From: Streptococcus ilei | GTDB taxonomy: Bacteria > Bacillota > Bacilli > Lactobacillales > Streptococcaceae | Assembly: GCF_000479335.1 (NCBI RefSeq) | Contig: NC_022584.1 | Coordinates: 930,001-994,000 of the forward strand | Direction: 5' to 3' | Length of the DNA: 64,000 nt | Shown here: positions 39,496-62,567 of the stretch, piece after piece | Layout of the letters: each line of letters opens with the position of its first letter | Numbering within the stretch: position 1 is the stretch's first letter | Made by a program: the position numbers and the translations under genes | The notes under the pieces: generated by a model | Seen by the model: only the letters and a program-made list of their open reading frames with translations | Told to the model about the DNA's origin: nothing | Database searches by the model: none

Positions 39496-39540
39496 ATTAA
39501 ACTCGTCGTTTATTTTTTAATAAAAATTCTCAAAAAATAG

Positions 39541-39683
39541 ACCGTCCAAGCTTTAGCTCCGCAAGGCAATGAAATGAGCTTAGTCTTGACCTTTGCGATC
39601 AGGACTGTTGACCAACGAGTAGTGTCTCCACTGCTTTGCGGTAGTCATCCGTATCCTTGTGGTAGCCTCACCTACCGTTATTC
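39541..39683 (-). promoter_or_regulatory. M-box (ykoK) Mg2+ riboswitch of mgtA
   Basis: Minus strand contains the M-box core blocks in order: GGTAGGTGAGGCTACC, ACAAGGATACGG, TTGGTCAACAGTC, then CATTGCCTTGCGGAGCTAAAGC. These correspond to conserved M-box positions (AGGUGAGGCU, the AC-rich L4/L5 parts and the CAAUGCUAAAGCU end). It follows a consensus promoter and precedes a terminator and mgtA. Confidence 0.9.
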
Positions 39684-39689
39684 CCCTTG

Positions 39690-53862: not shown

Positions 53863-54666
53863 TTATCCCAAAACCAATTCGTCACTCACCAAGGTTTCAC
53901 CACTATTCTGATGAAAAAGGCGCATCAAGTCTTCAACCGTCAGGTTCTTCTTTTCTTCCCCTTTAACGTCGACCACAATTTTGCCTTGGTAGAGCATGAT
54001 CAAACGATTGCCATATGCGATGGCATGGTTCATATCATGCGTAATCATCAAGGTTGTCAAATCATGACTTTCCACGATCTTTTGCGTCAATTCCATGACC
54101 ATTTCACTGGTCTTGGGATCGAGCGCTGAGGTATGTTCATCCAGTAGCAAGAGTTTTGGTTTGACCAAGGCAGCCATGACCAAGGTCAAAGCTTGCCGTT
54201 GTCCCCCTGATAAATATTGCGTGTCCACTTTGAGGCGATTTTCCAAACCAATATTGAGTTCCTTCAAAGCCGTTTTAAATTCTTCGCGGTCTTTTTCTTT
54301 AACCCCCCAACTGAGTCCCCGTCTTGCTCCCCGTTTTTTAGCAATGGCCATATTTTCTTCAATGGTCAAGCGGGAAGCCGTCCCCATCTTAGGATCCTGG
54401 AAAACACGGGCGATCTCCTTAGCACGCTTCCGAACACTGGTCTGCTTAATAGATTTTCCTTCTAACAGGATATCTCCTTGGTCCACTTGCAAGCCACCTG
54501 CCAGAATGTTCATCAATGTCGATTTCCCTGCTCCATTTCCTCCGATGACGGAAATGAAATCTCCTTCTTCTACTGTCAGGTCCAAGCCTTTGAGAACATG
54601 GTTTTCATTGACTGTTCCTGCTTCAAATGTCTTATGTATATCTTCGATTTTTAACAATGTTGCCAT
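53863..54666 (-). CDS. ABC transporter ATP-binding protein (TrpZ/COG1101 type)
   Basis: A 267-residue ATPase. Walker A GGNGAGKST, signature LSGGQRQALTLVMAAL, Walker B LLLLDEHTSALDP (His where Pro is usual, as in COG1101), H-loop ITHD. It serves the COG2984/COG4120 permease family thought to import aromatic amino acids, especially tryptophan. Third gene after the substrate-binding and permease genes. The ATG has AAAGGAG. Confidence 0.87.
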   Translation of the reverse strand: MATLLKIEDIHKTFEAGTVNENHVLKGLDLTVEEGDFISVIGGNGAGKSTLMNILAGGLQVDQGDILLEGKSIKQTSVRKRAKEIARVFQDPKMGTASRLTIEENMAIAKKRGARRGLSWGVKEKDREEFKTALKELNIGLENRLKVDTQYLSGGQRQALTLVMAALVKPKLLLLDEHTSALDPKTSEMVMELTQKIVESHDLTTLMITHDMNHAIAYGNRLIMLYQGKIVVDVKGEEKKNLTVEDLMRLFHQNSGETLVSDELVLG

Positions 54667-54679
54667 TTATCTTCTCCTT

Positions 54680-55576
54680 TTAGTTGCTGGTTAATTTTAA
54701 TCCACGAATCTTGAGACGTTTCTGGGCTTCTGGTGCAAACAAGACCAAGGCCAAGAGAATAGCATTAAACAAACGGACTAAGTTTTGATCTAAGTTTGGA
54801 ATTTCATAGATATTGAGGATAATGAGGCGGTAAACAATTGCCCCCACTCCAATCGAAAGTAAGCGTCCTCCAATGGTCAAATCATGGATCAAGACTTCTG
54901 CTAGAATAACGGCGCTAAGTCCTACGACGATGGTCCCTGTACCAGAAGTCACGTCTGAGAAGCCATCTGTCTGAGCGAAGAGAGCCCCACACAATGCAAC
55001 CAGTCCATTAGAAATCATATAACCGAAAATCTTCATGGTGTCCACATTCACCCCATTGGCCTCACTCATTGGGATATTGTCACCCGTTGAACGAAGAACC
55101 AAGCCAATCTGAGTTTTCATTAAGAGGGTCAAAATCAGACAGACCAATAACAAACAAGAAAGACTAACAGCAAAGACAGCAGCCTCATTGGACAAACCCA
55201 GCCCCATCACAGACTTGAAGATGGTACTTGAATCTCCAATGGATAAATTAGGAACACCTCCCATGATCTTAATATTGATCGAATAGAGACCCGTCAGGGT
55301 CACAATCCCTGTTAAGAGTGCGGGGATCTTCATCTTAGTATGAAGGAGGCCAGAAACTAGACCTGCTAACATCCCTGCAAAAATAGAAAAGAGGGTCGCT
55401 AACCATGGGTTTTGACCTGCTTGAATTTGGGATGCAACGACTGCCGCTCCAAGCGGGAAAGCCCCTTCTGCTGTCATATCCGCTATATCTAAAATGCGGA
55501 ATGTTAAGAATATACCAATGGCCATAATCGACCACAATAAACCTTCAGATAAACTTGATAATACTAAATCCATCAT
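54680..55576 (-). CDS. ABC transporter permease (TrpY/COG4120 type)
   Basis: A 298-residue membrane protein with about nine hydrophobic helices. Marks: FRILDIADMTAEGAFPLGAAVVAS (about 26-49), LSGLLHTKMKIPALLTGIVTLTGLYSINI, and VLRSTGDNIPMSEANGVNVDTMKIFGY, all typical of this family. Two adjacent ATGs follow AGGAG (second at 55573, 7 bases away); the true start is one of these. Confidence 0.87.
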   Translation of the reverse strand: MMDLVLSSLSEGLLWSIMAIGIFLTFRILDIADMTAEGAFPLGAAVVASQIQAGQNPWLATLFSIFAGMLAGLVSGLLHTKMKIPALLTGIVTLTGLYSINIKIMGGVPNLSIGDSSTIFKSVMGLGLSNEAAVFAVSLSCLLLVCLILTLLMKTQIGLVLRSTGDNIPMSEANGVNVDTMKIFGYMISNGLVALCGALFAQTDGFSDVTSGTGTIVVGLSAVILAEVLIHDLTIGGRLLSIGVGAIVYRLIILNIYEIPNLDQNLVRLFNAILLALVLFAPEAQKRLKIRGLKLTSN

Positions 55577-55583
55577 CCATCTC

Positions 55584-56558
55584 CTATTTCTTTTCGTTTA
55601 TACCAGAGAGATCAATTCCTAATTTCTTAGCCATCTCTTTGTTGACATATAATTCTAAATTCTTAGGGGCTTCCACTGCCAGATCGGCTACCTTTTCCCC
55701 TTTCAGGATACGAATCGCCATCCGGGCAGATTGACGACCCAACTCGGTGTAGTCTGTCCCATAGGTATAGAGCCCTCCTACTTGAGCCATTTCAATTGAA
55801 CCTCCAATGACTGGAACTTTGTGTTTTAAAGAAACTTGTTTGATCGTTTCCATCGTAGAGGAAATAATGTTGTCTGTTGGAATAAAGACTAGATCGACCT
55901 CTGACATCAAACTGTCCGCTGCTGCTTTCACATTATTACTGTCTAAGATGGTTTTCTCTACGACACGGTAGCCTTTAGCCTCAAGAACCTTCTTGGCTTC
56001 CTCTTTTTGAACGACTGAGTTGGGTTCACTTTGCGTATAGAGGATCCCAATCGTCTTAGCTGTTGGCAAAACCTTTTGAATCAGATCGACTTGCGTAGCA
56101 ATGGCATCTGAAGATTGGTCGCTCGTTCCTGTCACATTGCCACTAGGACGATCCAAGTTCTTGACCAACTTAGCAGCCAGAGGGTCCGTCACTGCAGAAA
56201 AGACTACAGGGGTTCTTTTGCTCGTATTGGCAATACTTTGTGCCGATGGAGTCGCAATGGCAAACACAAGGTCACTTTCCTGTGATAATTGATTTGAAAT
56301 GTTTTTCAAATTTCTCTGCTCCCCTTGAGCATTTTGATAATCAATTTCAATCTCTTCTCCATCTACATAGCCTTGTTTTGCTAACTCTTCCACAAAGCCT
56401 TTTCGAGTTGTATCAAGAGACTTATGGGTAATATACTGAGAAATCCCAATCTTAATCTTTTGATGCTTAGAGGTCTTCAAGTGATGGAGGCTCAAGAGAG
56501 AGGTCATCAATAGACCAACTACCAGAACCGGGGCAATTAACTTCTTTACAACTTTCAT
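55584..56558 (-). CDS. ABC transporter substrate-binding protein (TrpX/COG2984 type)
   Basis: A 324-residue binding protein: N-terminal anchor MKVVKKLIAPVLVVGLLMTSLLSL without a lipobox Cys, so it may be a membrane-tethered or cleaved form. Domain marks: KIGISQYITHKSLDTTRKGF, VFAIATPSAQSIANTSKRTPVVFSAVTDPLAAKLV, NVTGTSDQSS, and YTYGTDYTELGRQSARMA. COG2984 proteins bind tryptophan or other aromatics in related streptococci. I start at ATG 56558 with AAGGAG; earlier codons in the frame run through the attenuator and are not coding. Confidence 0.85.
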   Translation of the reverse strand: MKVVKKLIAPVLVVGLLMTSLLSLHHLKTSKHQKIKIGISQYITHKSLDTTRKGFVEELAKQGYVDGEEIEIDYQNAQGEQRNLKNISNQLSQESDLVFAIATPSAQSIANTSKRTPVVFSAVTDPLAAKLVKNLDRPSGNVTGTSDQSSDAIATQVDLIQKVLPTAKTIGILYTQSEPNSVVQKEEAKKVLEAKGYRVVEKTILDSNNVKAAADSLMSEVDLVFIPTDNIISSTMETIKQVSLKHKVPVIGGSIEMAQVGGLYTYGTDYTELGRQSARMAIRILKGEKVADLAVEAPKNLELYVNKEMAKKLGIDLSGINEKK

Positions 56559-56597: not shown

Positions 56598-56627
56598 AAA
56601 AAACCGTTTAGATGATTCTAAACGGTT
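56598..56627 (-). terminator. Attenuator terminator before the TrpX-like gene
   Basis: Minus strand AACCGTTTAGA, loop ATCA, TCTAAACGGTT, then a T-run. It lies 40 bases before the ATG and inside the transcript. Confidence 0.9.
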
Positions 56628-56774
56628 GGTATCATTCCTCACAAACTTAAAAGTATGCCAGCATTGCCGTCCATTTAGATATCATCTATATGGACCACAA
56701 TCAAAAATCTTAGCCACATAGATACAAACAAATTGCTCGTTTCGTTTGCATCCATGAGTTCATGTCTACAAACA

Positions 56775-56834
56775 CTATCTAAAGTAGCTAAAGTAAAAGT
56801 TTTGATTCAACAATGTGGAGTTCGTGTTTTTCAT
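56775..56834 (-). CDS. Putative Phe/Tyr-rich leader peptide
   Basis: ATG 56834 to TAG 56775, reading MKNTNSTLLNQNFYFSYFR. Five of the last seven residues are Phe or Tyr, coded TTT TAC TTT AGC TAC TTT. The stop codon is 1 base before segment a of the hairpin chain, so a ribosome at the stop would cover a, while one stalled at the first aromatic codons would leave it free. The ribosome site AAAGCAG is weak. There is no Trp codon here. Confidence 0.6.
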   Translation of the reverse strand: MKNTNSTLLNQNFYFSYFR

Positions 56835-56865
56835 AAAATTCTGCTTTCGTTTTTTTATGTTGACT

Positions 56866-56894
56866 ATCTTACCGAAATTTTTTCAGGCTGTCAA
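56866..56894 (-). promoter_or_regulatory. Promoter of the TrpX-like operon
   Basis: -35 TTGACA (56889-56894), 17-base spacer, -10 TAAGAT (56866-56871). It puts the transcript start about 25 bases before the leader ATG. Confidence 0.85.
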
Positions 56895-56984: not shown

Positions 56985-58025
56985 TTATTTTTTAAAGGTG
57001 AATTTAAAATCATCCTCTTCATTCTGATAAACCGTTAAGATTCCGTTTACCAATTTATATTTGAGATTGTATTGCATTACAAAGTTTCCACCACTATCTA
57101 CAAGAAATTCATGAGTTTTTTCAGATAACTCGCCTTCAAATAACACCATATCTATGGTTCCTTTTTTAACATCAATTTCAACTCCTATTTCCTTCAAGTA
57201 ACCCCATTTGCTTCGTTCCTCAATGTACTCCAATGCATTTTCCACAGAATTTAAATAACTTTTATCGCCTTCAAGGAGTTTTTTTGCTGCTCCTTTAAAA
57301 TCAACTTTTCCTGATGTAGAAATTTTTACATTGTTACCCTCTACTTCCACAATCATTTCGACATCTTTAAAAAATTCACCAGAGATATCTAAAGTCGAGG
57401 TGAAACTTTCTTTAAAACCAGATGTCATTTCTTTCTTCACTTCAGGAGTAGCTGACCATTTCCCTTGAATACTATTTGGATTTTTAGCAAATAACAAAAA
57501 GGCAAGCACAGACAAAACTGCAACGGCAACTAGACTACATAATCCAATAATAAGCCCTTTTTTAGACTTCTTCACTGGCATTGGACCTTGGCCCATATAT
57601 GAGGAATTAGTCTGGTAATTCAGTTGCCCATTGTTTGGATAGCCACCCTGCATCTGAGCATTGGTATAGGATGTGAAGGGCGCTCCCTCTTGAGCCGACT
57701 CCTGAACAGGAGCTTGTGGCTGGATTCCACCTTGACCAAAAGCTTGTCCTTGTTGTTGAAACGGACTTGTTGCACCTTGGAATTGATTTGGAGCTGAACT
57801 TGCACCTCCAAATGGGGCTTGGGTCGGAGTTGGACCTCCGAACTGTGCTTGTTCTGGTGATGGCGTCGCACCTTCAAATGGAGATTGAATTGGATTTACC
57901 AGCGTATCCTGTGTCGCTTGTGTTTCTGGACTTTCAAACTGACCAAAAACCTGTTCGATTTCCTCCTGATTGGCCGGTCGACCATGGACTCTCTCGAACT
58001 CTGCTAACCATTCTTCTGGTTTCAT
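56985..58025 (-). CDS. Membrane protein of unknown function, paralogue 1
   Basis: A 346-residue protein whose N-terminus MKPEEWLAEFERVHGRPANQEEIEQVFGQFE is nearly the same as that of the gene upstream. Layout: this 30-residue cytoplasmic motif, a Pro/Gln/Gly-rich linker (about 31-150), basic KKSKKG, one membrane helix (about 158-180), then an outer domain of about 165 residues starting NPNSIQGKWSATPE. No family is recognised. The start is ATG 58025 with AGAAGG; GTG three codons earlier is possible. It has diverged from paralogue 2 most in the outer domain. Confidence 0.75.
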   Translation of the reverse strand: MKPEEWLAEFERVHGRPANQEEIEQVFGQFESPETQATQDTLVNPIQSPFEGATPSPEQAQFGGPTPTQAPFGGASSAPNQFQGATSPFQQQGQAFGQGGIQPQAPVQESAQEGAPFTSYTNAQMQGGYPNNGQLNYQTNSSYMGQGPMPVKKSKKGLIIGLCSLVAVAVLSVLAFLLFAKNPNSIQGKWSATPEVKKEMTSGFKESFTSTLDISGEFFKDVEMIVEVEGNNVKISTSGKVDFKGAAKKLLEGDKSYLNSVENALEYIEERSKWGYLKEIGVEIDVKKGTIDMVLFEGELSEKTHEFLVDSGGNFVMQYNLKYKLVNGILTVYQNEEDDFKFTFKK

Positions 58026-58130
58026 GACTATCACCTTCTAACCTTTACTTATTTTATTATAAAGGAAATTCATAGGAGAAGCAAACCCTACTAAAATGAG
58101 TATAAAAATCAGGAAAAACCTTGATTTTAT

Positions 58131-58280
58131 GGCTCTATAATTTCTGTAGTGGATAATATCACCATAGGAATTATGGAGCCTATTTTGTTGTAGAAAACAA
58201 GAACATCAAAAAGGAGAGAACCAATTTGGTCCTCTCCAGGGTATAACTTTTCATCAACCCACTACAGTTGACAAAGAGCC
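58131..58280. mobile_element. 150-bp remnant or MITE with ISL3-like inverted ends
   Basis: Begins GGCTCTATAATTTCTGTAGT and ends, on the other strand, GGCTCTTTGTCAACTGTAGT followed by GGGTTGATGAAAAG. These ends resemble terminal repeats of ISL3-family elements such as IS1167 and IS1193 in streptococci. No transposase remains, only a GGAGAGAACCA/TGGTCCTCTCC hairpin. I see no clear target duplication. Confidence 0.6.
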
Positions 58281-58296
58281 TAAATAAGCGAATATC

Positions 58297-59520
58297 TTAT
58301 TTTTTAAAGGAGTATTCAATTCCATAATCATTTCCATCCACGGAAACTTTCAGCGTTCCATTTTCAATTTTATACTTGAGATCGTATTTAAGGAAATGAC
58401 TCGCATCTTCATCCTGAATGAATCGGTGATCTTTTTCATCCACCTCACCTTCAAAGGCTACCATTTTAAGAGTGCCTTTTTTCACATCGATTTCAAGTCC
58501 CATATCCTCTAAATAGGAATTCTCACTGTTTTCTTGGATATAGTCTAAGGCATCCTCAACAGAGTAAAAATCATTGTCCCCATCATCATAGAGTTCCTTT
58601 GCAGCTCCCTTGAAATCAATCTTACCAATCACACTGATGGTTACTTTTTTCCCCTTTACCTCTACGATCATATCCATATCTTTTACAAATTCACTAGAAA
58701 TATCTGATGTAGTAGAGAAAGTGCCTGCAAAAGCAGACTTCATTGTCTTTTTCATTTCAGGAGTAGCCGACCATTTTCCTTGAATACTATTTGGATTTTT
58801 AGTAAAAAAGAAAAATGCAAGCACAGATAAAACTGCAACAGCAACAAGACTACATAAACCAATAATCAGCCCTTTTTTAGACTTCTTACCTGGTATTGGA
58901 GCTTGGCCCATATATGGAGAATTAGCCTGGTAATTCAGTTGCCCATTGTTTGGGTAGCCTCCCTGCATCTGAGTGTTGTTATAAGATGCGAAGGGCGCTC
59001 CTGTTTGAGCCGCCTCCTGAACAGGAGCTTGTGGCTGAGTTCCACCTTGCCCAAAAGCTTGTTCTTGATGTTGATACTGACTTGCTCCACCTTGGAATTG
59101 ATTTGGAGCTGGGCTTGCACCTCCAAATGGGGCTTGGGCCGGAGCTGGACCTCCGAACTGTGCTTGTTCTGGTGGTGGCGTCACACCTCCAAACTGTGTT
59201 TGCTCTGAAGTTGGCGCTGCTCCTCCAAATGGCGTTTGCTCTGGAGTTGGCGCTGCATCTCCGAACTGGGTTTGTTCTGGGGCTGGCGCTGCTCCTCCAA
59301 ATTTAGCTTGTTCTGGAAACGGTAAAGGGCCTCCAAATTGTCCTTGATTGGAAACAGGTGCTGCACCTTCAAATGGAGATTGGATTGGGTTTACGGGCGT
59401 ATTCGGTGTCGTTTGTGTTTCTGGACTTCCAAACGTACCAAAAGCCTGTTGGATTTCCTCCTGATTGGCCGGTCGACCATGAACCCTCTCAAACTCTGCT
59501 AACCATTCTTCTTGTTTCAT
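58297..59520 (-). CDS. Membrane protein of unknown function, paralogue 2
   Basis: A 407-residue relative of the next gene. N-terminus MKQEEWLAEFERVHGRPANQEEIQQAFG, then a longer linker with about eight irregular repeats of the kind PAPEQTQFGG (about 50-140), basic GKKSKKG, a membrane helix (217-239), and an outer domain from NPNSIQGKWSATPEMKK. The linker is low-complexity and the ends of both proteins, including 3' flanks (GCGAATATCTTATTTTTTAA), are alike, so this is a tandem duplication. Function unknown. The ATG follows AAGGAGATC. Confidence 0.78.
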   Translation of the reverse strand: MKQEEWLAEFERVHGRPANQEEIQQAFGTFGSPETQTTPNTPVNPIQSPFEGAAPVSNQGQFGGPLPFPEQAKFGGAAPAPEQTQFGDAAPTPEQTPFGGAAPTSEQTQFGGVTPPPEQAQFGGPAPAQAPFGGASPAPNQFQGGASQYQHQEQAFGQGGTQPQAPVQEAAQTGAPFASYNNTQMQGGYPNNGQLNYQANSPYMGQAPIPGKKSKKGLIIGLCSLVAVAVLSVLAFFFFTKNPNSIQGKWSATPEMKKTMKSAFAGTFSTTSDISSEFVKDMDMIVEVKGKKVTISVIGKIDFKGAAKELYDDGDNDFYSVEDALDYIQENSENSYLEDMGLEIDVKKGTLKMVAFEGEVDEKDHRFIQDEDASHFLKYDLKYKIENGTLKVSVDGNDYGIEYSFKK

Positions 59521-61085: not shown

Positions 61086-62567
61086 TTATACTCCATAACG
61101 TGTGAAATCATAAAAGAGTACATTCAGTTTTTCTACAAGTTCCAAAAGGGTCAAACTACTTGTACAAATAAATTTTTTCCCTTTGATATTCGGAATCATA
61201 AAGTTGGCAACAATAACATCATATTCGGTATGCTCTAGTTCATGAAGATTAAAGTCATGCTTGATGACCTGTGAAAACTCAAAGTTATCCGTACAATAGA
61301 ATTTTAAGAAATCAATCATGGACTTGGCATGGTGGTCATCGTATCGGCTAATGATTAAGACCTTGACAGCTGTCCGTCTCCTTAATAGTTGAGGCAATAG
61401 ATTTTCCCAATGTGAAAATACGGTATAAATCTGATGCTTGAGGTTTTCAGGATTTTCATGAAAGCCCATCTCTTTGAGATAGTGATACAAACCTGTTTCA
61501 ACATCCTGATAAAATTTAGGGAAGAGGGTTCGATAATCCTCATTGGTATAGCTCTTGGTATCATAGAGAAGAAATTCACCAAAGATTTCACGCCGCTCCA
61601 AATAGGCGGTGTTGTGAATATGCATAATCATCTCTTCATAATTCTCAAGTTCTAAACCATAAGATTCACTCAGGTGATCAAGAAATTGAGAGGCTAAAAT
61701 ATAGGATTTTTTTGTAACAGCATCTTCCTCAGTGGAGTCAATCAGATCCTGTGGGGTAAAATAGAAGCGTTTCTGTAGGAAGATAATAAAGAGCTGTTCT
61801 ATGATTTCTTCGTTAAATTCTACACCCAGCTGCAAACCAAAATAACGAAGCATCTCATTGATTTTTGGGAGCTCTTGATAGAGATAGGCGTATTGTTCAA
61901 AATTATTGGCCCCTTCAATCCGATACCCTTGCTTGATCCGGTAAAGATAGACCGTCAGCATAATTTTATAAGAATGAAAGATCGAATAAGTCAGTGGGAT
62001 TTCCGTCAGTTTATAGAAGAAGGTGATGAAATCAATGATGACTTGTTCTCTGATATCTGGAAATGGCCACTCTAAATAATAATACCGCTCTGCAAAATAT
62101 TGGGAATAGAAAAAGCGAATATCGACTTCGTCTCCCACGACATTTAGAGGATTCAAGGTGATTCGAATATTGTACTTTTCCTGAATAATCTGGTTAATGT
62201 TTCGAATCAAGCGATAAAATGATTGTTGACTGAGATCATATCGTCTACAAATTAAGTCACTGGAAACGTCCTTATGGAAGAACAAGTATTCCAAGAGGGA
62301 GAAAGCTGTAGATTCTTTAAAGAAGTGATGGTAGACCACCTCAATCCCAACCGAATCATCATAGCTGATCTTAATGCCATTTGTCGAAGACTCAATCAAG
62401 AACTCTTTAAAGACCGTTCGTAAATTTGAAAGATCCTCCTTCAATGACCGTTCTGTACAATCTAACATTTCTGCGAGTTCCTTCAAATGAAACCAGCGCT
62501 TCTCTCGAATTAATGTTTCTAGCAAACGCATTTGGCGTCGCTGCTTTTTGGCAAGCAATTCTATCAT
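61086..62567 (-). CDS. Mga/RofA family transcription regulator
   Basis: A 493-residue regulator of the Mga class. N-terminal helix-turn-helix (about 10-60, RLLETLIREKRWFHLKELAEMLDCTERSLKEDLSNLR), a second winged helix (about 90-150, LFFHKDVSSDLICRRYDLSQQSFYRLIRNINQII), PRD-like middle domains, and an EIIB-like C-terminus (about 405-490, VKVLIISRYDDHHAKSMIDFLK). Such proteins control surface and sugar genes in streptococci. The ATG has AAGGAG, 10 bases away. Its -10 is TGTTATAAT. Targets are not visible here; the surface genes in this window are candidates only. Confidence 0.88.
   Translation of the reverse strand: MIELLAKKQRRQMRLLETLIREKRWFHLKELAEMLDCTERSLKEDLSNLRTVFKEFLIESSTNGIKISYDDSVGIEVVYHHFFKESTAFSLLEYLFFHKDVSSDLICRRYDLSQQSFYRLIRNINQIIQEKYNIRITLNPLNVVGDEVDIRFFYSQYFAERYYYLEWPFPDIREQVIIDFITFFYKLTEIPLTYSIFHSYKIMLTVYLYRIKQGYRIEGANNFEQYAYLYQELPKINEMLRYFGLQLGVEFNEEIIEQLFIIFLQKRFYFTPQDLIDSTEEDAVTKKSYILASQFLDHLSESYGLELENYEEMIMHIHNTAYLERREIFGEFLLYDTKSYTNEDYRTLFPKFYQDVETGLYHYLKEMGFHENPENLKHQIYTVFSHWENLLPQLLRRRTAVKVLIISRYDDHHAKSMIDFLKFYCTDNFEFSQVIKHDFNLHELEHTEYDVIVANFMIPNIKGKKFICTSSLTLLELVEKLNVLFYDFTRYGV

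Follow-up and report, generated by a model that had tools for sequence, protein, structure and literature searches.

In Escherichia coli, the leaders of the trp, phe and his operons are ribosome-mediated attenuators, drawn with about four segments. A short ORF with regulatory codons is common to these trp-type attenuators, to Rli60 of Listeria and to the locus described here; in the trp-type attenuators and Rli60 the position of the ribosome selects the antiterminator or the terminator, as it would at this locus. Rli60 lies 5' of ilv-leu, and the loss of its start codon is reported to lower expression (PMC5864092, excerpts). A comparable Gram-positive case is the Ile/Leu leader peptide 5' of the branched-chain operon ilv-leu in S. 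aureus, although the antiterminator proposed there sequesters the poly-U and leaves the terminator stem-loop intact, and the excerpts of PMC5794164 contain no comparable relay. For trpXYZ, a paralogous ABC importer from the protein family of the one studied here, the response to amino-acid supply is exerted by a Trp T-box (PMC9382623, excerpts), and trpX carries this T-box in S. suis and S. pneumoniae (PMC9382623 and PMC10942264, excerpts). This leader differs in sensing tRNA, and in the present genome it is found before a Trp-type paralogue and not before the operon of interest.

The window is a stretch of 64,000 nt of Streptococcus ilei (NC_022584.1), and all coordinates given are window-based. 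The whole putative attenuator element reads on the minus strand, from 56894 down to 56598. Compared with trp-type attenuators and Rli60, it has seven segments (a to g) plus an additional one (L), its leader codons take part in a covarying helix with segment c, and its chassis is conserved in sequence from one genus to the next, with different codons set into it. The promoter, the leader ORF with its aromatic end, the seven segments with all six pairings between neighbours and the intrinsic terminator named in a preliminary description, made from the letters alone, are all present (Table 1). The 11-bp terminator was recovered by a separate terminator scan as well (2 found in the region against 0.3 expected) and ends 43 bases 5' of the ATG at 56558. 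The folding energy of 56850-56590(-) has a z of -6.4, no shuffle of 200 being equally good. The Shine-Dalgarno of the leader appears weak, and a second, overlapping ORF of 26 aa with one Trp is found inside the element, at 56755-56675(-).

Table 1. Parts of the putative attenuator element and genes of the downstream operon in the window.
Feature	Position	Strand	Remarks
Promoter TTGACA-17-TAAGAT	56866..56894	-	10/12 consensus bases
Leader ORF, 19 codons	56775..56834	-	MKNTNSTLLNQNFYFSYFR followed by the stop codon; ends FYFSYFR
Regulatory codons TTT TAC TTT AGC TAC TTT	56781..56798	-	codons -7 to -2 before the stop
Segment L	56776..56793	-	final codons of the leader ORF; partner is the 3' part of c (56724-56709)
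Segment a	56761..56773	-	partner b; begins one base past the leader stop
Segment b	56744..56753	-	partner a or c
Segment c	56709..56729	-	partner L, b or d
Segment d	56684..56695	-	partner c or e
Segment e	56669..56680	-	partner d or f
Segment f	56617..56627	-	5' arm of the terminator; partner e or g
Segment g	56598..56612	-	3' terminator arm (56602-56612) and T run
ABC substrate-binding protein (SBP)	55584..56558	-	PF04392, 266 bits; Phe/Tyr-type pocket residue
ABC permease	54680..55576	-	PF02653
ABC ATPase	53863..54666	-	PF00005

Other features of the window were recorded in passing. Two tandem paralogues with near-identical starts (KPEEWLAEFERVHGRPANQEEI and KQEEWLAEFERVHGRPANQEEI) and no Pfam match lie at 56985-58034(-) and 58297-59520(-), and a match to Rfam Srn266 (RF02822) is found between them, at 58131-58230(-). 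An M-box magnesium riboswitch (RF00380, 87 bits) is present at 39532-39686(-), and a Mga-type regulator (PF08270, PF05043, PF08280) at 61086-62567(-).

We are fairly confident that the element is a ribosome-mediated transcription attenuator, by which a shortage of charged tRNA-Phe or tRNA-Tyr switches on the ABC importer for aromatic amino acids. Segment c would have three rival partners: b, d and L, the latter formed by the final codons of the leader itself. With no ribosome, L would take c, so that d pairs with e and f is left to g, resulting in termination. A ribosome at the stop codon would mask both L and a, in which case b would take c, with d-e, f-g and termination again following. A ribosome held on the Phe/Tyr codons would mask L and expose a, leading to a-b, c-d and e-f and to no terminator. 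The relay would work as an AND gate, requiring that the leader is under translation and that its end is unreached, and the amino-acid specificity would reside in codons about -7 to -2. That the leader ORF is translated and that the operon in fact responds to starvation is inferred, as are the kinetics and the ribosome footprint. The core claims of the preliminary description, which had already read the locus as an attenuator, hold in silico, but the L-c helix had been missed, and with it that the untranslated state should terminate too.

The L-c helix is seen in the minimum-energy fold. In an alignment (A1) of 46 of 49 diverse leaders (L035, L094 and L104 left out), its 16 pairs have 98.0% of cells paired, with double changes at 5 pairs, among them AU/UA at columns 17-106 and 23-99 and UA/CG at 18-105. 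Leaders with UUC (Phe) in place of UAC (Tyr) mostly carry GAG instead of GUG in c. Taken together, L-c, a-b and d-e have 95.7% of cells paired in A1, against at most 45.4% in slid versions, and 116 double-change cells, a value that none of 500 shuffles attained (mean 50.7). The core helix of a-b is 99.7% paired with no double changes, which are found at the helix base, and A1 has most of its invariant columns in a, b, c and the end of L. One of the leaders left out, L035 (G209), has an additional hairpin between c and d-e and a stretch of 181 nt; the remaining 48 of the diverse set have 137-153.

Automatic segmentation succeeded for 122 of 128 Streptococcus leaders (all but L006, L051, L056, L078, L089 and L090), and 98 unique ones remained for the covariation counts after 24 of the 122 were removed as duplicates. 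Double-change cells exceed the shuffle maximum for L-c (106 vs 56), a-b (31 vs 11), d-e (127 vs 90), e-f (35 vs 22) and f-g (171 vs 79). The terminator helix f-g is in addition 88.0% paired, against a shuffle maximum of 81.7%, and is the sole helix beyond every shuffle when pairs with a double change are counted (12 vs a maximum of 9). The same count does not lift L-c (29 of 300 shuffles reach its value), a-b (272), d-e (139) or e-f (25) clear of the shuffles. No excess was found for c-d within Streptococcus (80.9% paired vs 81.8% in shuffles), its core UCUA/UAGA being nearly invariant, nor for c-d and a-b jointly (0.083 against 0.084), and c-d appears short in the pyogenes-like group. Segments b and c hardly vary where they pair, so covariation is uninformative on b-c. 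The compensatory changes that the preliminary description had proposed to look for in a to g are therefore present, as double-change cells, in a-b, d-e, e-f and f-g, but not in c-d within Streptococcus, while b-c is invariant.

The pairing was also compared between native and swapped segments in a mixed set of 87 leaders, 19 of them from Streptococcus, of which one was lost. In the remaining 86, native e-f has -11.75 kcal/mol against -7.33 in swapped combinations, and native c-d, d-e and f-g are likewise better than swapped (0 of 5000 permutations for each of the four helices, in tests that ignore the relatedness of the leaders). The antiterminator e-f overlaps both d-e and f-g and is thus mutually exclusive with them. 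A hairpin followed by a T run is present in 87/87 leaders of the mixed set, a count made without a shuffled control.

The consequences of the ribosome position were simulated for the 122 segmented Streptococcus leaders, folded at equilibrium with the RNA ended at the end of f, by removing everything up to 13 nt past the first A-site base, which corresponds to a 13-nt ribosome footprint. Without ribosome, L-c (0.62) and d-e (0.85) prevail and the mean P(e-f) is 0.11; termination in this state of the simulation results from the L-c helix. The mean P(e-f) rises to 0.52, 0.56, 0.68, 0.75, 0.77 and 0.69 when the A site is placed in turn at each codon from -8 to -3; at codons -7 to -3, a-b has 0.59-0.79 and c-d 0.55-0.75. 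Most of e-f is lost by codon -2, the last Phe (0.26), and with the A site at Arg and at the stop, b-c reaches 1.00 and d-e 0.78, while e-f falls to 0.20 and 0.19. Counted by leader, P(e-f) exceeds 0.5 in 10/122 without ribosome, in 70, 69, 84, 92, 96 and 85 at codons -8 to -3, and in 28, 20 and 13 of 122 at -2, -1 and the stop. The value of 0.52 belongs to codon -8, which is mostly not Phe/Tyr and is the furthest-upstream position simulated.

A ribosome on or just before most Phe/Tyr codons thus gives the antiterminator while both extremes do not, the behaviour of an AND gate in which c is the segment competed for. The parity suggested in the preliminary description is reproduced to a large extent, as a ribosome on the aromatic codons leads to a-b, c-d and e-f, and one at the stop to b-c and d-e with f free, but codon -2 does not conform (0.26), and in this model a stall on that last Phe codon would be mostly silent. 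The outcome of such an equilibrium calculation follows from the pairings put into it, so it is no independent proof of them. A blunter simulation of leaders outside Streptococcus shows the same trend, weaker. There, f is paired at 0.50 without ribosome, 0.67-0.69 at codons -7 to -3 and 0.51 at the stop in 52 aromatic leaders, and at 0.44, 0.69-0.71 and 0.57 in 16 branched-chain leaders, only 14/52 and 4/16 of which exceed both OFF states by 0.2.

In the genus Streptococcus, a DNA search with the element matched 150 of 284 genomes, two of them spuriously (L101 and L116, with no leader at the match), and the element is absent from part of the genomes. From the 130 loci fetched for these matches, L101 and L116 were left out. 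The preliminary description had predicted a leader ORF in relatives, and one with conserved aromatic codons was indeed found in 128/130 loci, by an expression that presumes an end of the type [FY][FY][FY][SG][FY]FR followed by the stop (exchanges allowed), ORFs having also been listed without that motif. The N-terminal part of the peptide varies freely across the 128 leaders, and the Phe/Tyr codons are kept, with F and Y exchanged. A promoter-like site (at least 10/12) is found within 110 nt of the leader ATG in 123/128 leaders, against 6/128 mononucleotide-shuffled controls. A homologue of the window SBP is present in the fetched flank of 125/128 leaders; two of the others were ended by contig ends and the third is L073 (G013). 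In this locus a transposase-like ORF, which we take to be of IS200 type by its appearance, lies 3' of the leader with no SBP in 1.9 kb, and the operon seems interrupted or gone. Two leader copies near each other were found in each of two genomes (L283 in G049; L115 in G061). Those of G049 are one Phe-rich (TFFNFSFFR) and one Tyr-rich (SYYYFSFFR), each 5' of an SBP.

A wider collection of 143 unique leaders anchored on AGATAG contains an in-frame ATG ORF of at least 12 codons in 140, with a Shine-Dalgarno-like motif in only 83 of these 140. Codons -7 to -2 are mostly aromatic, in relatives also Ile/Leu/Val, and no Trp is found at codons -7 to -1 in any of the 143. The other two frames gave 0 and 4 in a control, which is partly trivial because TTTAGA closes one frame. 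Comparison among genomes, in short, carries the ORF, its codon class, most helices, the terminator and the match between codons and operon described below.

Regarding the substrate, the SBP of the window scores 320.3 bits with the NCBIfam equivalog for TrpX (NF041285), below its cut-off of 390, and the closest solved structure is 6HNI (the Tyr-binding CD0873 of C. difficile), followed by 3LFT (Trp-binding). Selectivity depends on a residue that is Tyr279 or Tyr262 in Tyr and Phe binders and Gln284 in the Trp binder (PMC6816091, excerpts). The window SBP has Tyr at this position, not the Trp-type Gln, and shares with CD0873 the Tyr at 279 that is said to exclude Trp, but it has Ser in place of Glu263, which in CD0873 binds the Tyr hydroxyl (PMC6816091, excerpts). 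Among 123 alignable SBPs linked to a leader, the selectivity position is Tyr in 115, Phe in 8 and Gln in none; in a second alignment, the 279 column holds Tyr/Phe in 188/197, a gap in 8 and a different residue only in the ORF of L073, which is no SBP. The Glu263 column, on which we base nothing, has Ser or Asp by clade in one alignment and mostly Ser in the second, and no convincing link was found between the Tyr content of the leaders and the pocket residues of the SBPs. The SBP below the TrpX cut-off, Tyr instead of Gln in the pocket and leaders devoid of Trp codons led us to reject Trp specificity. As the preliminary description had proposed from the leader, the TrpX-like system of the window is probably a Phe/Tyr importer, judging from these residues and codons.

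The same genome contains one further match to the SBP family, outside the window (G000:C1:817402-818731; L346, L353), with the Trp-type Gln and 76.9% identity to SP1069. The match of this paralogue starts 168 bases behind a T-box match with UGG in its specifier region (read by eye). In one genome, then, the Trp importer seems to be under a T-box and the Phe/Tyr importer under the attenuator.

At the level of the family, a covariance model built from A1 matched 162/335 genomes, all but one of which belong to Streptococcus. A codon-agnostic pattern, in which AGATAG, two GUUUGU blocks and UAUCUAU are fixed and the codons before AGATAG are free, matched at least 117 stretches in public genomes. 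Among the matches listed are lactobacilli (Levilactobacillus, Lactiplantibacillus, Companilactobacillus), Vagococcus, Globicatella, Ruoffia, Hutsoniella, Eremococcus, Falseniella, Ignavigranum, Fundicoccus, Dolosicoccus, Aerococcus, Aliicoccus and two Clostridia/Clostridium MAGs. Across an evenly drawn sample of Lactobacillales, 74/395 genomes and 17/80 genera carried the pattern, with up to 4 copies per genome, and the reversed pattern is not among the matches listed for the same draw of the order. Neither this operon nor the mitis group is alone in having the switch, which occurs in several families of Lactobacillales and sporadically beyond.

The peptide ends of these leaders, all running up to the stop codon, differ with the genes that follow. 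Leaders of lactobacilli ending in FAFSFFFR precede the same ABC operon; SLYFSYYR and NFYFSYYR are found 5' of aroE and a DAHP synthase (L170, L329), and SFYFSYFR 5' of a DAHP synthase and a prephenate dehydratase-like protein (L202). On the other side, IIISIIIR, VIISIVIR and LLLSLIIR precede livJ-like binding proteins (L222-L224, L233, L177), ATIISIIR precedes ilvE (L183, L265, L318) and NIIISIIR precedes ilvA and ilvB (L217, GTG start). A single genome (G562, L316) has NLLLISVIR 5' of ilvB and PLIISIIR 5' of ilvA, and a similar pair is present in a second genome (L317). NCBIfam models applied to ten representative proteins gave scores above the curated cut-off for aroE, DAHP synthase, ilvE, ilvA and ilvB; the prephenate dehydratase-like protein falls below it, as do the livJ-like proteins (151-187 bits vs 477 for the E. 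coli-type family). In 72 unique leaders (not identical over 130 bases; 5 from Streptococcus), 50 have aromatic codons and an aromatic-class gene as the first ORF, 16 have Ile/Leu/Val codons and a branched-chain gene as the first ORF, none is discordant and 6 are unclassifiable or lack an ORF, although the loci that define the gene classes are themselves among the 72.

Segment c changes along with the codons. The codon part of L-c has -11.56 kcal/mol in native combinations, -8.73 when swapped within a codon class and -6.00 when swapped across classes; none of 5000 permutations does as well as the native combination in these 87 leaders, in a test that likewise ignores their relatedness. Leaders with Ile/Leu/Val were seen in one family of the draw only, six of the seven named genera being Aerococcaceae (Eremococcus is ambiguous), so the recoding may have been one event followed by duplications. 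It seems to us a reasonable bet, short of confidence, that this is an old portable attenuator chassis working as an AND gate, present at many operons in Lactobacillales and in some relatives outside the order, in which 5-6 codons and the matching bases of c are rewritten and duplicates sense different amino acids. The same RNA chassis, with Ile/Leu/Val codons, would serve branched-chain operons in relatives. Its copies would read Phe/Tyr for import or for aro-phe-tyr synthesis, Ile for ilvA, Leu/Ile/Val for ilvB, and Ile for ilvE and liv import.

Some leaders of this collection have particular features. Asn is found among the regulatory codons in RFFFSNFR, VFFSSNFR, RFFNNYFR and VFFNSNFR (L180, L164, L247, L320, L322, L324); these leaders stand 5' of TrpX-like binding proteins, an unclassified 332-aa ORF coming first in L324. 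Lactobacillus versions (L161, L184, L235, L271 and others) carry a palindromic stretch, TCGGGCCCGA, between e and f. In a Clostridia MAG (L251, on a 5.6-kb contig), a Tyr-rich YIYYYSQFR precedes a permease, an ATPase and an SBP with the pocket pair Glu/Tyr of CD0873, and a T-box lies on the same contig.

Other explanations were weighed against these results. In a simpler attenuator, only d-e, e-f and f-g would switch, with a, b and c as decoration or protection of the RNA, as could be proposed from the lack of a covariation excess in c-d within Streptococcus and from the invariance of b-c. We regard this as unlikely, given that a, b, c and the end of L contain most of the invariant columns of A1, that the simulated switch between codons -3 and -1 accompanies the masking of a, and that native c-d beats swapped c-d in the 86 leaders. 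The conserved end of the peptide (XXXSXXR before the stop) might instead stall the ribosome by nascent-peptide arrest in response to a free amino acid, as the arrest peptide TnaC does in response to tryptophan. Arg is the last residue in 125/128 leaders of the genus, and Ser or Gly is found at -4 in 119 of the 143 unique leaders; the Arg at -1 in 143/143 of the latter proves nothing, since the AGATAG anchor fixes it. Against arrest, the sensor residues are exchanged freely (F/Y and I/L/V) and the AGATAG bases pair with c. Moreover, five loci (L094, L100, L104, L207 and L240) reach the stop one base earlier, losing the Arg codon but keeping AGATAG, so that the constraint there is on the RNA and not on the peptide. 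With a peptide sequence that is not conserved, the F/Y/I/L/V exchanges and Arg lost in these five, TnaC-like arrest was rejected as the main mechanism and appears very improbable.

No Rfam family reaches its gathering score at the locus. A relative is RF02863, "Enterococcus sRNA 2410", which matches the element end to end with 52.6 bits (E 5.7e-8), short of the 61 set as its gathering score. L247 (62.6) is the one sequence above that threshold among 19 relatives scanned. The consensus structure of RF02863 draws L-c, a-b and d-e, like the window element, but the family is typed "Gene; sRNA", not leader or attenuator. The E. faecium RNA named as this family has 195 nt, with two transcripts on Northern blots (PMC5593968, excerpts), and no word beginning with leader or attenuat occurs in the main text of that paper. 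A small RNA acting in trans, to which the downstream operon would be incidental, could account for the match over the whole element and for an RNA of about 195 nt on the blots (PMC5593968, excerpts). However, the same SBP lies 3' of 125/128 leaders and the codons predict the operon class elsewhere, and a terminated leader would resemble an sRNA anyway, so this appearance is no argument against an attenuator. We give a trans-acting RNA almost no weight; the leader may have a second role in trans, and the "sRNA" family RF02863 is likely an attenuator itself. Hardly worth more consideration is a T-box, a metabolite riboswitch or control by tryptophan, for which the resemblance of the SBP to TrpX could speak. 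A T-box of this genome precedes the other member of the SBP family, the leader lacks Trp codons and the pocket residue is wrong for Trp. In agreement with the preliminary description, which had named such a match as contrary evidence, a covariance search for T-box (RF00230) and riboswitches gave no match for the locus at gathering, a threshold at which the T-box has no match in the whole window, and no match is listed there up to E = 10. A ribosome-mediated attenuator with a relay remains our preferred reading.

The class of mechanism is known in Bacillota. On the other hand, the seven-segment relay with a codon helix, the conservation of the chassis and the swapping of its codons appear to be new, as searches of the openly licensed literature brought up no description of them; a supplementary table (e.g. 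of PMC8632094 or PMC6296669) may contain an entry. The preliminary description held that no six-hairpin relay had been published, and none was found in the literature searched, but a relative exists in Rfam as RF02863, filed as an sRNA.

Amino-acid operons of Gram-positive bacteria are often explained by T-boxes, and here a translated leader seems to serve instead. One RNA re-coded for different amino acids amounts to a natural codon-swap experiment, and the leader alone yields predictions of substrate for poorly annotated importers, as for the TrpX-like system of this genome. The seven-segment relay offers a test of how far decisions made in co-transcriptional folding can travel down an RNA, and it could serve as a template for amino-acid sensors.
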